This document shows positions 18,943 to 25,360 of a DNA stretch of 64,000 nt, one piece after another. The notes beneath the pieces were generated by a model. The model worked only from the letters and a program-made list of their open reading frames with translations. It ran no database searches and was not told the origin of the DNA. The position numbers were made by a program, and so were the translations under genes. Source of the stretch: Kitasatospora sp. NBC_01287 (lineage in GTDB: Bacteria > Actinomycetota > Actinomycetes > Streptomycetales > Streptomycetaceae); contig NZ_JAPEPB010000001.1 in NCBI RefSeq assembly GCF_026340565.1, positions 2,952,501 through 3,016,500 on the forward strand, in the 5' to 3' direction. How positions within the stretch are numbered: position 1 is the stretch's first letter; each line of letters starts with the position of its first letter.

Positions 18943-19909
18943 CCGAGTAGTTCCGATGTCTGGCTGCGGAGACAGCAAGAGGGTCCCGATGATCCGTGTG
19001 TGACGACAGACCTCGCAACCCTCTTGACCTCACTCTATGTGGAAGTTGACGACGAGATCGGAGGAACCCGATGGATGGGAACGCCACCGCTACTGAGCGA
19101 CAGCGAGTTGGTCTGTCTGGCGGTCGCGCAGGCACTGCTCGGGTACCACTCCGAGGCCCGGTGGCTGCGCTACGCGAACAAGCACCTGTCGGACATGTTC
19201 CCCTACCTGCCGCAGCGGCCGGGCTACAACAAGCGTCTGCGATCCTCGCTTCCGCTGCTCAAGCGCGTGATCCGGGAGCTGGCCATGGACAGCGACTTCT
19301 GGTTCGACAACCACTGGATCGTCGACTCGACGCCGGTCCCGTGCGGGATGTCGCGGCGGACGGTGTTGCGGTCGAACCTGGCCGGGTGGGCGCAGTACGG
19401 ATACTGCGCGTCACATTCCCGGTTCTTCTCGGGACTTCGGCTCTACCTGGTCTGCACGCCCACCGGTATGCCGATCATGTGGGCGCTTGCCTCCGCGAAG
19501 ATCGGCGAGCGCGAGGTGCTGTCCGCGATGCTTGAGGTCGACGCCGGCGTGGTCGCCGCCCGCGAGGGCATCCTGCTCATCTCGGACAACGGCTTCGCGT
19601 CCAAACTTCGAGCGGGAGCTTCTCGATCAGGGCATCGAGCTGCTGCGGCCTTCGCGCAAGCGCGAGAAGGAGCGGTACGGCGAACCGATGCTCAAGAAGG
19701 TCCGCCAGCTGATCGAGTCGGTCAACGACACCCTCAAGGGGCAACTTGACCTGGAACAACACGGCGGACGGACCTTCGAGGGCGTCGCGGTCCGGGTCAC
19801 ACAAAGGATCTTGGCGATGCCTGCCGGGATCTGGCACAACAACCGGATCGGCGCACCGGTCACCCGCTCGCTGATCGCTTACGATCACTGACCACTTCGG
19901 TGCAACTCG
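18943..19909 (+). mobile_element. IS982-family insertion sequence (copy A)
   Basis: About 967 bp, the normal size for IS982. The left end CGAGTAGTTCCGATGT (18944-18959) and the right end at 19894-19909 form imperfect inverted repeats (12 of 16 positions). The transposase is frameshifted, so the copy is probably immobile. No target duplication is seen at its own right end. Confidence 0.7.
19000..19891 (+). pseudogene. IS982-family transposase, frameshifted
   Basis: Two reading frames join to one DDE transposase of about 296 residues. Frame 1 (19000-19605) runs from MTTDLATLLTSLYVEVDDEI through DSTPVPCG (first Asp) to LLISDNGFASK (second Asp). Frame +1 from 19607 continues FERELLDQGIELLRPSRKRE (catalytic Glu region) to VTRSLIAYDH and TGA 19889-19891. 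One extra base, or two missing, at about 19606 breaks the gene. Programmed frameshifting is not usual in IS982 and no slippery heptamer is visible, so a degenerative mutation is the simpler reading. Confidence 0.88.
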
Positions 19910-20086: not shown

Positions 20087-21043
20087 TCAGGCCACGGCGA
20101 GTTCCGCGTCGAGGACCGCGTCGATCTCGGCCAGTTCCTCGGAGGTCGGCACCCACTGCCCGGCGGCGGCGTTGGCACGCACCTGCTCGGCACTGCTCGC
20201 CCCGGCGATGACCGAGCCGCAGCCGGGCCGTGCGGCGAGCGCTCCCACACCGATCTCAAGGACGCTCCGGCCGTGCACCTCGCCCCAGGCGGCGAGACGT
20301 TCGACCGCGTCGAGGCCGGCTTCGGTTACTCGCTCGGGCCGCGATGCCAGGCGCGAGCCCGCGGGCACGCCGGTGGCACGGCGTACCTTGCCGGTCAGCA
20401 GGCCGTTGGCGAGCGGGTAGAACGGCAGCACGCCGAGGCCGTAGTGCAGTGCCGCGGGTACCACCTCCCGCTCAGCGCCGCGTTCGAGCAGCGACCACTC
20501 GTTCTGGGCCGAGACGAACGGAACAGCCCCGATCTCCCGGGCGACGTGCGCGGCCTCGGCAATCTGCCAGCCGGCGAAGTTGGAGTGCCCGATGTAGCGC
20601 ACCTTGCCTTCGCGCACCAGCTCGCTGAGCGCGGCGAGGGTCTCGGCGATCGGTGTGCGCGGGTCGGGAGTGTGCAGCTGGTAGAGGTCGATGTGGTCGG
20701 TCTGCAGGCGTCGCAGCGACTCCTCGACCGCGCGCCGGATGTAGGCCCGACCGCCCTTCGCCCCGGCCGCCGGCCCGTACCCCAGGTCCGCACGCTGATA
20801 GCCGAACTTGGTGGCCAGCACGACCTCGTCGCGCCGCCCTTTCAACGCCCGGCCGAGCAGCGTCTCGGAGCCGCCCCCGGCGCCGTAGATGTCGGCGGTG
20901 TCGAAGAGCGTCACCCCGGCGTCGAGTGCCGCGTCGACCACCGCGAGTGTCTGCGCTGCGTCGAGACGTCCGCCGAAGTTGTTGCAACCGAGTCCAACTA
21001 CGGAGACGAGGAGTCCGCTGTTGCCGAGCGTTCGATATTCCAT
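20087..21043 (-). CDS. Aldo/keto reductase
   Basis: A 318-residue NADPH-dependent oxidoreductase with the (beta/alpha)8 AKR fold. The start MEYRTLGNSGLLVSVVGLG and the catalytic tetrad are visible: Asp48 and Tyr53 in FDTADIYG, Lys79 in LATKFGY, and the His in LYQLHTPDP. The C-terminal coenzyme phosphate site GSVIAGASSAEQVRANA is present. The gene looks intact and lies inside the mobile island between the IS982 copy and an IS5-type element, so it is a cargo candidate. Its start is only 16 bp from the IS5-type terminal repeat at 21060, so its promoter may lie in that element. Substrate unknown. Confidence 0.92.
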   Translation of the reverse strand: MEYRTLGNSGLLVSVVGLGCNNFGGRLDAAQTLAVVDAALDAGVTLFDTADIYGAGGGSETLLGRALKGRRDEVVLATKFGYQRADLGYGPAAGAKGGRAYIRRAVEESLRRLQTDHIDLYQLHTPDPRTPIAETLAALSELVREGKVRYIGHSNFAGWQIAEAAHVAREIGAVPFVSAQNEWSLLERGAEREVVPAALHYGLGVLPFYPLANGLLTGKVRRATGVPAGSRLASRPERVTEAGLDAVERLAAWGEVHGRSVLEIGVGALAARPGCGSVIAGASSAEQVRANAAAGQWVPTSEELAEIDAVLDAELAVA

Positions 21044-21136
21044 GGGGTGACTCTAGTTCTGAGAGGGCGGTTCGAGAGTCGATGTCCGTTTCGAAGTGAG
21101 ACAGGACAGGACTGCTGGTCGCGGGGGCTCAGTCGG

Positions 21137-21532
21137 CTACTGCTTCTTGGTAAAGCTGCCGGCGTCGACTTCGGTGAGGACGTCGAGTTTGACCAGGCGT
21201 TTCAGCTCGGCGCGAGTGCCTTCGATGTTCTTCGGCTGTGGTTCGTGGCCGAGGGCTTCGCAGACGTCACGGGCTCGCAGGGGGCCGGTCGCCTCGTTGA
21301 AGAGCGAGAGGATGCGGGGGTAGTCCGGGTGCTCGGGCGGGGTGGTCCGGGCCGGGAGGCGGTCGGCGAGGGCGGTGACGGTCTTGCGGGTGATCGCGAG
21401 GTGTTCGAGCTGGGTCTCGGCCTCCCGCAGTCGGCCCTGCAGTTCCTGGATTTGGCTGCGGAGGTCGTCGGCCAAGGCCCGGGCGGCGTCTTCTTGGATG
21501 TCGAGCGCGTCGAGGAGGGGCTGGATGGTCAC
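21137..21532 (-). CDS. IS-associated passenger protein, coiled coil plus winged-helix-like domain
   Basis: A 131-residue protein of unknown function. Residues ~8-48 form an amphipathic coiled coil (EDAARALADDLRSQIQELQG). A linker follows, then a small alpha/beta domain (YPRILSLFNEATGPLRARDV, then CEALGHEPQPKNIEGTRAEL) resembling a winged helix, by pattern only. It is homologous to the protein at 24816: both share ITRKT, GPLRAR-VCEA and LKRL. The GTG start overlaps the transposase stop (GTGA), implying coupled translation. The frame is intact although the transposase is broken. It may assist transposition or regulate it (inference). Confidence 0.78.
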   Translation of the reverse strand: MTIQPLLDALDIQEDAARALADDLRSQIQELQGRLREAETQLEHLAITRKTVTALADRLPARTTPPEHPDYPRILSLFNEATGPLRARDVCEALGHEPQPKNIEGTRAELKRLVKLDVLTEVDAGSFTKKQ

Positions 21533-22232
21533 GCCGTCACCGCCTGCGGGTCGCGCCAGGTGGGCGTGTTCGCGCAGGTGAGGCGGCGGGCCATGACCCA
21601 GGCATGGCCCAGTAGACGCGGGAGGCGGAGGAGGCCGGGCTGTGCTCGTAGTCGCGGACCAGGCGCCGGTGCAGGACCAGGATCCCGTAGGTCTGCTCGA
21701 CCCTCCAGCGTTTCGGCTGCGGGACGAACCCCTTGTCCTGCGGGTTGCGTTCGATGATCTCGACGTCGATGCCCAGGCCGGCGCCGTGCGCGGCGACCTG
21801 CTTCTTGAAGCCCTGGTCGACCAGGGCCTTGCGGACGGTGCCGCCGGTGTGTTCGGCGACCTGGTCCAGCAGGGCGATGCCCGCGGCGTTGTCGTGCGTG
21901 CTCGCAGCCAGAACGATGACAGCTATGACCAGGCCCAACACGTCGACGGCCAGGGCCCGTTTGCGACCGGACACCCGTTTCGCCGAGCCCAGGCCGGTCG
22001 TGGAGGCGGGGACCCCGGCGGCCACGTGGACGCTCTGCGTGTCCAGGACCACCAGGGTCGGGTCCTCTGATCGGCGGGCCCGCTCGCGGACCTGGCAGCG
22101 CAGGAGTTCGTGGATGACCTGGTCGGTTCCGTCGTCGCGCCAGGCAGCGAAGTAGTAGTAGGAAGCGCTCTTCGGCGGCAGATCGCGCGCCGGGGCCCGG
22201 GCCGCCCACCGAAGCAGTTCCCTGCCAGCTGA
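21529..22232 (-). pseudogene. IS5-family transposase, 5'-truncated and frameshifted
   Basis: The minus-strand frame opens after a stop at 22233-22235 and reads DLPPKSASYYYFAAWRDDGT, LVVLDTQSVHVAAGVP (first catalytic Asp), KALVDQGFK (second Asp region), RWRVEQTYGILVLHRRLVRD and RVYWAM. After a 1-base deletion near 21605 it continues in the next frame as VMARRLTCANTPTWRDPQ to TGA 21529-21531. The N-terminal ~60 residues of the family are absent. The comparison with element 2 (YWAISDVMTRRLTG) fixes the frameshift position. Confidence 0.85.
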
Positions 22233-22252
22233 TCATGTCCGGCGTGGTGAGA

Positions 22253-22480
22253 TTACTGCCGATATTCGGCCGGCTTCGCGCGGGTGAGTTCGCTCCACCG
22301 CCCGAGTTCCTCTCGGTGGCTGCCGACCGCCGTTGTGAGGGCGACGGCTGCCAACTGTTCCGGTGTCGGCTCGCCGTTGCGGCGGGCGAGGAGCGTCAGC
22401 GGCCAGGCCGGGAAGCTGGGCTGCTCACCTTCAGCCTTGAAGGGGTGCCAGTCCCAGGCAGCGTCGAACCGCCAGGAGCC
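22253..22480 (-). pseudogene. Possible C-terminal fragment of an unrecognised gene
   Basis: The minus strand encodes WRFDAAWDWHPFKAEGEQPS, FPAWPLTLLARRNGEPTPEQ, LAAVALTTAVGSHREELGRW and ends PAEYRQ. The Trp-rich composition and GC-rich third positions look coding. Toward its 5' side the frame runs into the plus-strand gene at 22502, so only a C-terminal piece appears to survive. I do not recognise the family, and it could be a chance frame. Confidence 0.35.
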
Positions 22481-22501
22481 GCGCTGCTCAATCCGTGGGC
22501 T

Positions 22502-22831
22502 ATGCCGAAGAAGCCGTCGGCGTCCATGCAGCACCATCTGCTCCAGCGGCTGAACACCCGCGCCGCCGAGCGCTGGCCGCAACTGGCCCGGGTCCACGTC
22601 CGCCTTCGCGCAGGATTCGCCTACGTGGAAGGTGAGTTGAAGGACGGCGAACGCCTGCCGCCGGGTCGCCTCCGCTTCGCCGGAGTCCTGCATACCTGGG
22701 GCTTCGCGGGCTTCCTCGCCGGCCGAGGCGGCTACGAGGACAACGTGCTCCCCAGCGGCCTACCCGTCGGCGCCCCCGAAGAGTGCCTGGACTGCGCCTG
22801 CGGCCTCTACCTCGACAGCCCGGCGGCCTGA
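22502..22831 (+). CDS. Conserved hypothetical protein of actinobacterial accessory regions
   Basis: A 109-residue protein: MPKKPSASMQHHLLQRLNTR, AERWPQLARVHVRLRAGFAY, then LRFAGVLHTWGFAGFLAGRG and YEDNVLPSGLPVGAPEE, ending DCACGLYLDSPAA. Similar small proteins are common in streptomycete accessory DNA (recalled, not searched). No catalytic motif is visible. ATG 22502 or 22526 may be the start, neither with a strong ribosome-binding site. It lies between the truncated IS5-type element and a hydrolase fragment, within the mobile island. Confidence 0.6.
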   Translation: MPKKPSASMQHHLLQRLNTRAAERWPQLARVHVRLRAGFAYVEGELKDGERLPPGRLRFAGVLHTWGFAGFLAGRGGYEDNVLPSGLPVGAPEECLDCACGLYLDSPAA

Positions 22832-22842
22832 CCCCTCCACGA

Positions 22843-22953
22843 ATGCAGCGCGAGTTCGCCCGTCGGGCCGGCAAGGTCGTCGAGCTCGACGCCGGCCACC
22901 ATCCGTTCCTGTCCCGGCCCGCAGCGGTCCTCGACCTGGTGCTGAGCCTCTGA
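22843..22953 (+). pseudogene. C-terminal fragment of an alpha/beta-hydrolase
   Basis: Thirty-six codons, MQREFARRAGKVVELDAGHH then PFLSRPAAVLDLVLSL, ending TGA 22951-22953. This is the typical C-terminal end of an alpha/beta-hydrolase carrying the catalytic His (GHHPFLSRP). The nucleophile and acid parts are missing, so it is a relic left by rearrangement in the island. Confidence 0.65.
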
Positions 22954-23146
22954 CGACGGCGACGGCGACGGCAGCGGCGCACGGATGGGCCGGATATCGT
23001 CTCCGGTGCAACTCCCCGACGCAGGGGACGGCTTGGGAGGGAGCCGTCCTGGTGGCGACGGTTGCCGAACGCCGAGGAACTGACGGTCTCCGGGTCGCGA
23101 CGTGCTCGTGAGTCGGGACAGCGGCGGGGCCATCCGGCGGGTCGAT

Positions 23147-23539
23147 TCAGCCGGTGTGAGGCGGTGGCGCATCGGCGTCGGGGCGGGCCCCGGCGGCGTA
23201 TTCGGCGCGGTCGGCGATCTGTTGGAGCGTGGCCAGGTGGGCGCGCAGCCGTTCGCGGCCGGCGGTGGTGGCCCGTACCCAGGTGCGGGGGCGCTTGCCG
23301 ACGTGGCCCTTGCGGATCTCGACGAGGTCGGCGTTTCCGAGCGTGGTGAGTTGCTTGGACAGCGCCGAGTCGCTCAGCCGGGCGTGGTCGCGGACGAAGG
23401 CGAACTCGCACCAGGTGGTGGCGGACACCAGCGCCACGATGGTCAGTCTGGTGGGGTCCAGGAGGAGTTGTTCCAGGCCGCCGACGGCGTCGGGGACAGC
23501 GTCCGGCGCGGCGTCGCCGCCCTGGCCGCTCACGCTCAT
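23147..23539 (-). CDS. Winged-helix (MarR/ArsR-like) transcriptional regulator
   Basis: A 130-residue regulator with a winged HTH spanning about residues 20-105: LLLDPTRLTIVALVSATTWC, RLSDSALSKQLTTLGNADLV (recognition helix) and wing VRATTAGRERLRAHL. This is the short type that pairs with a membrane protein. ATG 23539 overlaps the stop of the upstream membrane-protein gene by 4 bp (ATGA), so the two are translationally coupled. Twin operators upstream of the pair suggest autoregulation. It lies inside the mobile island but looks intact. Confidence 0.85.
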   Translation of the reverse strand: MSVSGQGGDAAPDAVPDAVGGLEQLLLDPTRLTIVALVSATTWCEFAFVRDHARLSDSALSKQLTTLGNADLVEIRKGHVGKRPRTWVRATTAGRERLRAHLATLQQIADRAEYAAGARPDADAPPPHTG

Positions 23540-24039
23540 CGGGCCGCTGCGCGATGGGCCATCCGGCGCAGCACCGCGTTGATCAGCAGGCCCACGGCGA
23601 CGCAGAGGACGGCGTACGGGAGGGCGATGGTGATGGAGGGGTGGTCGTGGATCCAGGCGGGCGTGCCGGAGCCGGTGAGCGCGCGGTGCACGGGTGGTTC
23701 GGCGAAGAACCGGAGGGCGCCGAAGGCGAGGCCGATCAGGAGGACGGGCAGCCAGGCGTAGCCGGGCAGGGCGCTGCGGTGCAGGGTACCGGAGGTGGCG
23801 GCCACGCGCGGGCTGCGGCGTCCGGCGACGACCCAGGCGACGGTGAGGGCGCCAAACCCGAGGGAGGCGACCTCCTGGACGGCGGGGCCGAAGTCCTCGG
23901 CGGCGGTGACCAGGGCCAGGACGGCGCCGAGCGCGGCCCACAGCCACCAGGGGGTGCGGAGCGAGCCGGCCGTGTCGAGGCGGACCTCGCGGACGCGGGC
24001 CAGGGCGTCCCGGGCTTCGGCGGGGCTGGGAGTCTTCAT
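23536..24039 (-). CDS. Integral membrane protein coupled to the winged-helix regulator
   Basis: A 167-residue protein. The first ~25 residues are charged (EARDALARVREVRLDTAGSL). Then follow four TM helices, roughly at 30-48, 55-72, 93-112 and 136-158. Such membrane protein/small winged-helix pairs are common in streptomycetes and may form an anti-regulator or sensor system, but no function is established for this one. It is the first gene of a two-gene operon. GAGGAGGAA upstream of ATG 24039 is a strong ribosome-binding site. Confidence 0.8.
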   Translation of the reverse strand: MKTPSPAEARDALARVREVRLDTAGSLRTPWWLWAALGAVLALVTAAEDFGPAVQEVASLGFGALTVAWVVAGRRSPRVAATSGTLHRSALPGYAWLPVLLIGLAFGALRFFAEPPVHRALTGSGTPAWIHDHPSITIALPYAVLCVAVGLLINAVLRRMAHRAAAR

Positions 24040-24059
24040 GGCGTTCCTCCTCAGGCGAG

Positions 24060-24105
24060 TACTTTCCTATGGAGAAAGTAGCTCGTACTTTCCTGCGAGG
24101 CAAGT
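24060..24105 (-). promoter_or_regulatory. Promoter with two palindromic operators for the membrane-protein/regulator operon
   Basis: On the minus strand TTGCCT (24103-24098), a 17-nt spacer and TACTTT (24080-24075) form a promoter. Palindrome 1 is TACTTTC-N7-GAAAGTA (24060-24080). Palindrome 2 is ACTTTCCT-GCG-AGGCAAGT (24087-24105, 7 of 8 pairs). Their centres are 26 bp apart and cover -10 and -35, so binding by the encoded regulator would block transcription (inference). Confidence 0.72.
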
Positions 24106-24224
24106 GGACACGCCCATGGGGCGGCTGACGGCAACGCCGTGGAGGCGCAGCAAGCCCCTGCAAAGCCAGGGCCGCGACCAGCCTTCCCGGGCGCAGGCCC
24201 GCATGGCGGCGAGGTCCTGCGGCG

Positions 24225-24262
24225 GCCGCCCCGCCCGCGTGGTGCTGTGCGGGCGGGGCGGC
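24225..24262 (-). terminator. Strong hairpin downstream of a decayed secreted-protein gene
   Basis: A perfect 14-bp stem (GCCGCCCCGCCCGC at 24225-24238 with its complement at 24249-24262) and a 10-nt loop, 28 bp beyond the stop of the minus-strand pseudogene. Confidence 0.8.
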
Positions 24263-24289
24263 TCAGTTCTGCTACCGGCGCGGCGGCGT

Positions 24290-24584
24290 TCAGTACAGGA
24301 GGCTGCAGCCTGCGTAGCCGGCCGCCAGGTGGTTCGAGGCCAGGTTGATGTCCATCTCGCTGACGCAGACGTAGTTGTGGCTGCCGGCGGTGCTGTCGGC
24401 GACCCAGCCGCCCTGCGCGCTGGCCCGTTGGCGACGGTGCAGCTCGGCCCGGTCGGGCCCGTCTGGTAGGTGTAGAACTGAGCCGTACACGTGACCGCCA
24501 CCCCGGCCGGGTTGTCGGCGTTCACGGCGACCTGGACCTGGCCGGTGGGCTGCCAGTCGGTGTTCATCACCGCGTGGCAGTAGT
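24290..24584 (-). pseudogene. Remnant of a small secreted protein gene cut by an IS5-type element
   Basis: The minus strand encodes YCHAVMNTDWQPTGQVQVAV, NADNPAGVAVTCTAQFYTYQ and TGPSCTVANG. After a 1-base loss near 24426 it continues in another frame with SAQGGWVADSTAGSHNYVCV, SEMDINLASNHLAAGYAGCS and LLY to the stop at 24290-24292. Four or five Cys residues and the composition suggest a secreted, disulphide-bonded protein. Its 5' part is missing because the IS5-type terminal repeat begins at 24585. I do not recognise a family. Confidence 0.7.
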
Positions 24585-24708
24585 TCAGAGGGCGGAATGT
24601 GAGCTGATTTCCGTTCTGTCGTCGCCTGAACGTGTGGCTTTGCCGTCTGCGGCAGGTCGCGGGGCTGGCGCCGTGCTGAGGTGACTGCGTGAGTGACCGC
24701 AAGCCGTA

Positions 24709-24819
24709 CGTGACTACGAGCACCGGCCCGCTTCGGCCGAGTCCCGGGTGTACTGGGCGATAAGTGACGTGATGACCCGTCGGCTGACCGGCAGTGCGAC
24801 GTCCTGGCGCGGCGCGTGA
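24709..24819 (+). pseudogene. C-terminal fragment of an IS5-family transposase
   Basis: Reads RDYEHRPASAESRVYWAISD then VMTRRLTGSATSWRGA and stops at TGA 24817-24819. It aligns without gaps to the transposase end at 21529 and supplies the bases that copy has lost. The upstream ~250 codons are deleted. Confidence 0.8.
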
Positions 24820-25244
24820 CCAGCGGGGAGCTGACCCTGGGGGCGGTGCTGCTACGGCTGGAGGAGCGCGAGCGGGAGATCGCCGCGCAGGTCGAGGAGA
24901 CCCGTGAGCAGATCTCGCGGCTCACCGCCGTGCTGGACGAGCTCGGCCGGGCTGCCGAGGAAGTGCGGATCACACGCAAGACGCTGCTGGAGCTGCCCGA
25001 CCCGGACCCGCCCGCGCCGTCGGCGTCCGCCCCGCAGCTGCCGGACAGGGCGGCCTACCAGGAAATCATGGCGGTGTTCGCCCAGGCGGACGGTCCGCTA
25101 CGGGCACGGGGCGTGTGCGAGGCGATGGACCTGGACCCGGCTCCGAACAACATCAACAACGTCCGTTTGAAGCTCAAGCGCCTGACCGGGCGCAACATCC
25201 TGGCCGAGACCGAACCGGGCCTGTTCACCCTGCCGCGACCGTAG
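24816..25244 (+). CDS. IS-associated passenger protein, second copy
   Basis: A 142-residue homologue of the protein at 21137. Residues ~10-48 form a coiled coil (LLRLEEREREIAAQVEETRE). Then come ITRKTLLELP, a Pro-rich linker, and the C-terminal domain YQEIMAVFAQADGPLRARGV, CEAMDLDPAPNNINNVRLKL, KRLTGRNILAETEPGLF. The GTG start at 24816 overlaps the transposase TGA (GTGA) exactly as in copy 1. That this frame stays open in an element that has lost nearly all its transposase suggests either recent deletion or selection on the passenger. Confidence 0.8.
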   Translation: MTSGELTLGAVLLRLEEREREIAAQVEETREQISRLTAVLDELGRAAEEVRITRKTLLELPDPDPPAPSASAPQLPDRAAYQEIMAVFAQADGPLRARGVCEAMDLDPAPNNINNVRLKLKRLTGRNILAETEPGLFTLPRP

Positions 25245-25309
25245 CCGTCCGGCGCGGCCACTTCCTCCACTACCGCGAAGCGGACATCAGCTCACGTTCC
25301 GCCCTCTGA

Positions 25310-25360
25310 CACGACAACCGGACCGGCCAGCCCGTCACCCGGTCACTGATCGACCACTGA
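25310..25360 (+). pseudogene. Seventeen-codon remnant of a second IS982 transposase
   Basis: CAC GAC AAC ... TGA encodes HDNRTGQPVTRSLIDH, the C-terminal signature of IS982 transposases (compare HNNRIGAPVTRSLIAYDH in copy A). It is followed 3 bp later by the right border repeat 25364-25379. Element 2 joins it directly on the left, so most of this copy was removed. Confidence 0.8.

Follow-up and report, generated by a model that had tools for sequence, protein, structure and literature searches.

A predicted coiled-coil and winged-helix passenger protein encoded beside IS5-type and ISKra4 transposases of actinobacterial insertion sequences

The 64,000 nt stretch of Kitasatospora sp. NBC_01287 analysed here (contig NZ_JAPEPB010000001.1, positions 2,952,501–3,016,500; hereafter the window) contains two related IS5-type insertion sequences, elements 1 and 2, in which a second gene, designated here the passenger, follows the remains of the transposase gene. 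Element 1 (21062–22189, minus strand), delimited by comparison with L004, an intact relative found in a different genome of the genus, is a 5′-truncated copy comprising a transposase remnant, the passenger and one terminal repeat. Element 1 and L004 align over 1129 bp with 96.5% nucleotide identity, and the homology starts at around position 22189, so that the copy has lost its left end and approximately the first 60 codons of the transposase. The remnant (21533–22189, minus strand), of the NF033580 type of the IS5 family, matches Pfam DDE_Tnp_1 (E 3.3e-9) and reaches 66 bits against NF033580, below the cut-off of 110 because of its truncation, while the transposase from L004 exceeds that cut-off with 150.6 bits and thus belongs to the IS5 family. 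Passenger 1 (P0001, 131 aa; 21137–21532, minus strand) is followed by the only terminal repeat left in the element (21062–21093, minus strand), on the passenger side; the right end of element 2 is 81% complementary to this repeat, and in L004 and a further relative, L005, the ends on the passenger side align with it.

Element 2 (24585–25309, plus strand) is an internal-deletion derivative of 725 bp that kept its two ends, 29 bp inverted repeats at 24585–24613 (plus strand) and 25281–25309 (minus strand) that are 93% complementary. Comparison with the transposases from L004 and L016, together with a tblastn search with the tail (L033), indicated that its transposase remnant (24689–24819, plus strand) consists of codons 1–7 (24689–24709) joined out of frame to approximately the last 36 codons, stop included (24712–24819). 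Passenger 2 (P0002, 142 aa; 24816–25244, plus strand) starts with a GTG at 24816 that overlaps the TGA ending the transposase tail (24817–24819). The original prediction, made from the sequence of the window, considered both transposases defective, as they are, albeit broken differently, and described a GTGA overlap of each passenger with the transposase stop. This overlap exists in element 2; in element 1 the GTGA is found at 21532–21529, yet the remnant frame terminates a few bases earlier (21537), owing to the loss of one base close to the 3′ end of the transposase gene. Both copies are leftovers, a truncated copy and an internal-deletion derivative, and represent IS5-family (NF033580) remnants rather than functional members.

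Both passenger open reading frames (ORFs) run uninterrupted from GTG to stop. Their products are 39% identical over 115 columns (E 3e-21), and their homology, anticipated in the original prediction and judged here from this alignment, is well beyond chance. Besides these two homologues, the genome containing the window encodes a third one of their type, as well as additional members accompanying other transposase types. AlphaFold2 predicted for both proteins a helix of at least 50 residues, followed by a linker and a domain of three helices and two strands: helix 4–58 and winged helix 71–129 in passenger 1 (mean predicted local distance difference test, pLDDT, 91.1), and helix 8–58 and winged helix 79–138 in passenger 2 (mean pLDDT 87.9). 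With predicted template modelling scores of 0.46–0.50, the models do not predict how helix and domain are placed relative to each other. When the model of passenger 2 was compared to solved structures, residues ~76–142 (at most 62–142) aligned with winged helices (Z 8.5–9.8, 56–78 residues, 7–24% sequence identity, among the 50 matches listed). The modelled C-terminal domain thus resembles those of the Zalpha, ArsR/SmtB, Fur and MarR proteins, but identity is low and the fold is common, so no function follows from the likeness. Foldseek returned no match for this model at E ≤ 0.001, and the comparison with solved structures distinguished no family by fold beyond the winged helix, an absence that proves nothing. 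Sequence searches of solved structures with the passengers gave chiefly coiled-coil matches, the best no better than E 0.006, and searches of Pfam, NCBIfam, PHROGs and PADLOC with the passengers as query returned only sub-cut-off or weak coiled-coil-like matches; the best helix-turn-helix match of any passenger was HTH_12 (L134, 19.5 bits, cut-off 21.4) and the best PADLOC match was JetC2 (L130, E 0.00035, 16.6 bits). The family has invariant residues, and conserved positions occur where the long helix ends, in an ITRKT/IARET-like motif, as well as in the recognition helix. We therefore describe the fold as a predicted coiled-coil helix plus a predicted winged helix, in agreement with the original prediction.

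A contig scan using the passenger as bait retrieved 180 stretches that encode relatives; the 80 best of these were retained as named loci, from Streptomyces, Kitasatospora, Streptacidiphilus, Actinacidiphila, Nonomuraea and Streptosporangium. The original prediction depended on the existence of homologues beside intact transposases, and these were found: both genes are intact in 27 of the 80 loci. Only the passenger is intact in 23 (two of them at contig edges), neither gene in another 27, and in three (L095, L125, and L128) an intact transposase is accompanied by a shortened or extended passenger; since the passenger was the bait, these figures overstate its survival. In 54 of the 80 loci the passenger start is found at −3 from the transposase stop, that is, the genes share a 4-base ATGA or GTGA overlap. 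Taxonomic searches, in which 10 and 8 candidates were scored per genome so that the counts are lower bounds, found relatives in at least 5 of 396 genomes of the phylum and at least 22 of 394 genomes of the class, counting that of the window. Matching terminal repeats were found in 27 of 42 relatives tried, not all of them independent; in this search none was found in 12, and three were doubtful (L024, L030, and L068). The ends frequently occur in CTNAG-like contexts, where target-site duplication and terminal repeat are not separable.

The association was also evident from the transposase side, in 70 genomes of the genus. A passenger lies downstream, on the same strand, of 68 of the 81 listed transposase matches at least 60% identical to that from L004, element 1 being among the 81, and in 61 of those 68 it is found within 41 bp of the end of the match. 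We designated these window-type elements, with the passenger start overlapping the transposase stop, lineage A. Conversely, none of 66 listed transposase rows at 44–51% identity has a downstream passenger, a count that excludes three rows at 41%, belonging to a convergent lineage, and unlisted matches. The passenger list behind both counts omits the weakest rows, and absences were therefore re-examined with a profile search, which recovered eight of eight known loci used as positive controls. Of 20 distinct places from the 66-row group, 19 lacked a passenger and none had one beside the transposase, the twentieth (L330) showing a short passenger fragment ~900 bases away. No passenger was listed for 13 lineage A rows, and the 12 of these not situated at a contig start were inspected: the passenger is interrupted in L151, cut off by the contig end in L346, and represented by its start only, early-stopped or decayed, in L150 and L161. 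The profile search found no passenger in the other eight, seven of which are without the transposase 3′ end. The coupling to an IS5-type transposase that was originally predicted is supported for close relatives.

As judged from profile and sequence matches, passenger relatives accompany four transposase lineages in three layouts, including ISKra4, and a partnership with a single IS5 type was too narrow a description. Lineage B is another IS5 lineage (NF033580, 190 bits for the transposase from L141), in which transposase and passenger are convergent with overlapping 3′ ends; the overlap measures 35 or 44 bp in 25 of 32 convergent loci (some of them repeated). Once 16 shorter rows were dropped, 60 listed transposases remained at identities of 59% or more, 52 of which have a passenger among the listed matches, and the profile search added four adjacent passengers (L313, L335, L336, and L337), raising the figure to 56 of 60; in L338, L339, and L340 the passenger is ~700–900 bases away. 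In a group at 51–52% identity, all six stretches taken (L305–L310) have a passenger by profile, and none was found by profile in L311 (44%) and L312 (49%). The genome containing the window has nine listed transposase copies with identical scores that are 51% identical to lineage B, and the two of them that were taken out (L305 and L306) each have a convergent passenger.

In lineage C the passenger is upstream, on the same strand, of a transposase that we call merely IS5-like because it does not reach the cut-off for IS5_4 (NF033581; 65.7 and 70.9 bits for L134 and L142, cut-off 140); the same proteins pass that of Pfam DDE_Tnp_4 (70.0 and 72.9 bits, cut-off 24.8). A passenger accompanies all 21 lineage C transposases having an N terminus and one of 10 that are 5′-truncated, vs. 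none of 19 transposases below 45% identity, nine places of which were also empty by profile. Members L134–L136 show unusually long terminal inverted repeats (~110 bp, 92.7%). Lineage D belongs to the ISKra4 family (NF033572), with 306 bits for the L130 transposase against a cut-off of 205. The passenger is again upstream, in 10 of 10 cases with the transposase N terminus present and in one of four truncated ones, and the genes overlap by GTGA in L130 and possibly in L179 and L202, while in L180–L182 the transposase starts ~72 bases past the passenger stop. Starting from passengers instead, a panel transposase or a fragment of one was present inside the fetched stretch at 57 of 60 loci, at least 10 of the 60 being repeats of a protein fetched twice.

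Profile–profile comparison (hhalign) connected the window-type passengers with those of lineages B, C, and D over 124–136 columns (E 1.8e-21, 4.3e-20, and 3.5e-30, respectively). In five multi-copy sets, with two to four near-identical copies compared in each, the repeated unit (1804, 1366, 2212, 1725, and 1689 bp) includes both genes between differing flanks, which places the passenger inside the mobile unit. The 1804 bp unit (set G061, comprising L139, L144, L145, and L016) is ~370 bp longer than usual for the window type, with the extra sequence 3′ of the passenger. A tree of 69 passengers, obtained by a quick method and with several long branches, required four changes of partner label, against a minimum of three and a mean of 32.7 after shuffling. 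The ISKra4 passengers fall in separate places of this tree, and the starred branches force at least two changes, gains or losses. The passenger of L202 (ISKra4), on a long branch, groups with the window type and apart from the ISKra4 passengers of L180–L182, which may reflect an exchange from one family to another. Among window-type elements, passenger distances were correlated with those of the transposases (r 0.87, 25 distinct loci), with none of 2000 permutations as high. Passengers had a median ratio of nonsynonymous to synonymous substitution rates (dN/dS) of 0.50 and transposases one of 0.24, and shifted frames of the passenger gave 1.02 and 1.67; the pairs compared are not independent, and those with dS outside 0.05–1 were omitted. 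The passenger is consequently under purifying selection, with a constraint weaker than that of the transposase. Together, these results show that four transposase lineages have in the passenger a partner gene that is conserved, under selection and located within the element. Other IS5 lineages lack it, which marks it as a trait of particular lineages and not as a general need of IS5 elements.

The original prediction also proposed that passengers are kept intact while transposases break, but selection to this effect is unsupported, passengers decay too and their dN/dS exceeds that of the transposases. Beside three near-full-length transposases the passenger is interrupted, early-stopped or decayed, and the pattern in the two window copies is accounted for by gene order, length and search bait: the passenger is 3′-terminal, short and was the bait, so that a broken transposase beside an intact passenger is unremarkable. 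In element 1, differences are fewer in the passenger (4/396) than in the transposase (30/657; Fisher p 0.001); the branch of the intact relative is, nevertheless, equally uneven (1 vs. 12), and in the L004–L005 pair it is the passenger that diverges faster (65/396 vs. 57/658), which makes recombination likelier than selection after decay. Orphan and linked passengers had pairwise median dN/dS values of 0.48 and 0.49, respectively, which say nothing about later selection because most of the divergence may predate transposase loss. We likewise rejected a family of passenger-only mobile mini-elements: among 24 candidates, i.e., loci with a missing, remnant or otherwise non-intact transposase, matching AGAG-type ends occurred only in element 2 and in L118, whose passenger is itself shortened, and weak repeats in L056, L060, L064, L078, L092, and L112 were at chance level and were discarded.

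Regarding the surroundings of the two copies, element 1 adjoins an open aldo/keto-reductase-like gene (20087–21043), all of whose matches are below curated cut-offs. An IS982-type transposase remnant is found at ~19000–19891 (119.6 bits, cut-off 130), and 48 bases of its tail recur, with 81% identity, at 25305–25352, directly flanking the right end of element 2, which is placed as if within a second, mostly lost IS982 copy.

What the passenger does must be argued from its distribution, its layout and its predicted fold. We favor, with a probability of about 50%, that the family comprises small DNA-binding accessory proteins dedicated to transposition. The long N-terminal helix would probably form a coiled coil, for dimerization, transposase contact or both, and the winged helix at the C terminus would probably bind the element's own DNA, at the ends or the promoter region. 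In the window type, both proteins are probably produced together, because the passenger start overlaps the transposase stop, and the passenger would most likely aid assembly of the transposase on, or its choice of, the element ends. Linkage is bound to lineages (68/81, 56/60, 21/21, and 10/10, vs. 0/66 and 0/19 for the IS5 groups that are more distant), and its near-complete retention in lineage B and complete retention in C and D favor a part needed for spreading over a dispensable brake. Retention in lineage A, apart from truncated or decayed copies, also argues for this, while still being compatible with a regulator.

Several observations weigh against a dedicated accessory role. The winged helix is a very common fold that suits a repressor equally, and the constraint on the passenger is the weaker of the two genes. 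Related IS5 lineages without a passenger are multi-copy, such as five equal-scoring rows in genome G006, and apparently thriving, so IS5-type chemistry does not need a passenger in general. The printed ends of the lineages look unrelated by eye, and no common DNA target was found in them. Additionally, L342 (query range 32–275) is a real window-type exception without a passenger, and the profile search found none in L334 from lineage B. Conversely, homologues without a panel transposase nearby exist in L143, L214, L225, and L044 (all four true homologues by profile), and L220 has only a transposase fragment; the neighbours of L044 look like ordinary genes, and it may represent a solo relative belonging to the host.

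A broader version of an accessory role is that the family is a general, exchangeable co-factor for transposition of actinobacterial insertion sequences, used in three layouts by DDE transposases of at least two kinds, IS5-type and Mutator-like ISKra4, having moved between them and being obligatory for mobility there. Movement between transposase kinds is suggested by the ISKra4 passengers lying in separate parts of the tree, and we advance this version only tentatively.

The strongest competitor, which we nonetheless regard as rather doubtful, is that the passenger represses transposition or regulates its own element, binding the promoter or the ends, in which case solo copies could dampen their relatives. 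The predicted fold resembles ArsR/MarR/Fur-type regulators, the convergent layout of one lineage implies a promoter of its own for the passenger, and passengers are often intact where the transposase is not, as in the 23 of 80 passenger-baited loci (two at contig edges) described above; these solo copies are, however, mostly due to missing left ends and to the search bait. A repressor should also vanish from spreading derivatives, but no multi-copy passenger-free element of these lineages occurs among the listed copies examined, the passenger is kept by 10 of 10 and 21 of 21 transposases with an N terminus, and seven of the eight lineage B rows first scored as passenger-free have one nearby.

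It is improbable, in our opinion, that the passenger is uninvolved in transposition and represents cargo, either beneficial to the host or selfish. Transposable elements that carry extra genes of other or unknown function do exist (PMC3942029), and the dN/dS of the passenger above that of the transposase, as well as the few homologues without a panel transposase, including L044 as a possible solo host gene, would fit such a role. Against it, a panel transposase or fragment lies near 57 of 60 passenger loci, the passenger is the sole cargo seen, within the unit and in four lineages, with a tree that follows the partner, and family libraries yield merely sub-cut-off or weak coiled-coil-like matches, such as the 16.6 bits of JetC2. 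Finally, high-GC DNA gives many spurious ORFs, but a chance or decay artefact, with overlapping ORFs arising beside broken transposases, is practically negligible given the conservation of the passenger across species and genera, a dN/dS of 0.50 in the true frame only, the invariant residues and the confidently predicted fold. Having weighed these alternatives, our results suggest that the passenger is a little-known helper or regulator of transposition, as was originally surmised.

Accessory proteins encoded by the element itself are a known kind, and small partner genes beside a DDE transposase are found in IS66 (TnpA/TnpB) and IS21 (IstB); IS1373, an old Streptomyces insertion sequence, may carry a second ORF. 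Family libraries showed no sequence relation of the passengers to the IS66 TnpA/TnpB or IS21 IstB accessory proteins, and the single match to IS66 TnpA (14.7 bits, cut-off 74) corresponds to the transposase from L142 and not to a passenger. The elements resemble the IS5 family (NF033580, IS5_3 group; "IS5 family transposase" in the Prokaryotic Genome Annotation Pipeline, PGAP) in their DDE transposase, size of ~1.4 kb and short terminal inverted repeats, and differ in the second gene overlapping the transposase stop. With the ISKra4 family (NF033572; p-MULT 4 Mutator-like, PMC3942029) they share a transposase above the cut-off (L130). That work reports additional genes of unknown function in four ISKra4 elements; the section dealing with them calls these genes different and presents none as winged-helix or DNA-binding (PMC3942029). 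These could include the passenger family. In the ISKra4 elements found here, the upstream gene is homologous to the IS5 passengers. In neither the family libraries nor the literature searched, a scope that leaves ISfinder and most subscription journals outside, did we find the passenger–transposase pair or a family common to IS5-type and ISKra4 elements, in line with the original statement that such a protein appears little described.

The usual description of an insertion sequence consists of a transposase and two ends. The annotation of one of three plasmid regions viewed (from an incomplete gene table) lists an "IS5 family transposase" and an overlapping "hypothetical protein," and the other two list only a "hypothetical protein" at the passenger position. 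Annotation of insertion sequences from the transposase alone can overlook conserved parts. If different transposase families share this protein within the mobile unit, many elements of Streptomyces and Kitasatospora would have a hidden second gene, recorded as "hypothetical protein" in the annotations viewed, and it would become possible to ask directly how transposons exchange accessory factors and whether these influence the genome plasticity of antibiotic producers.

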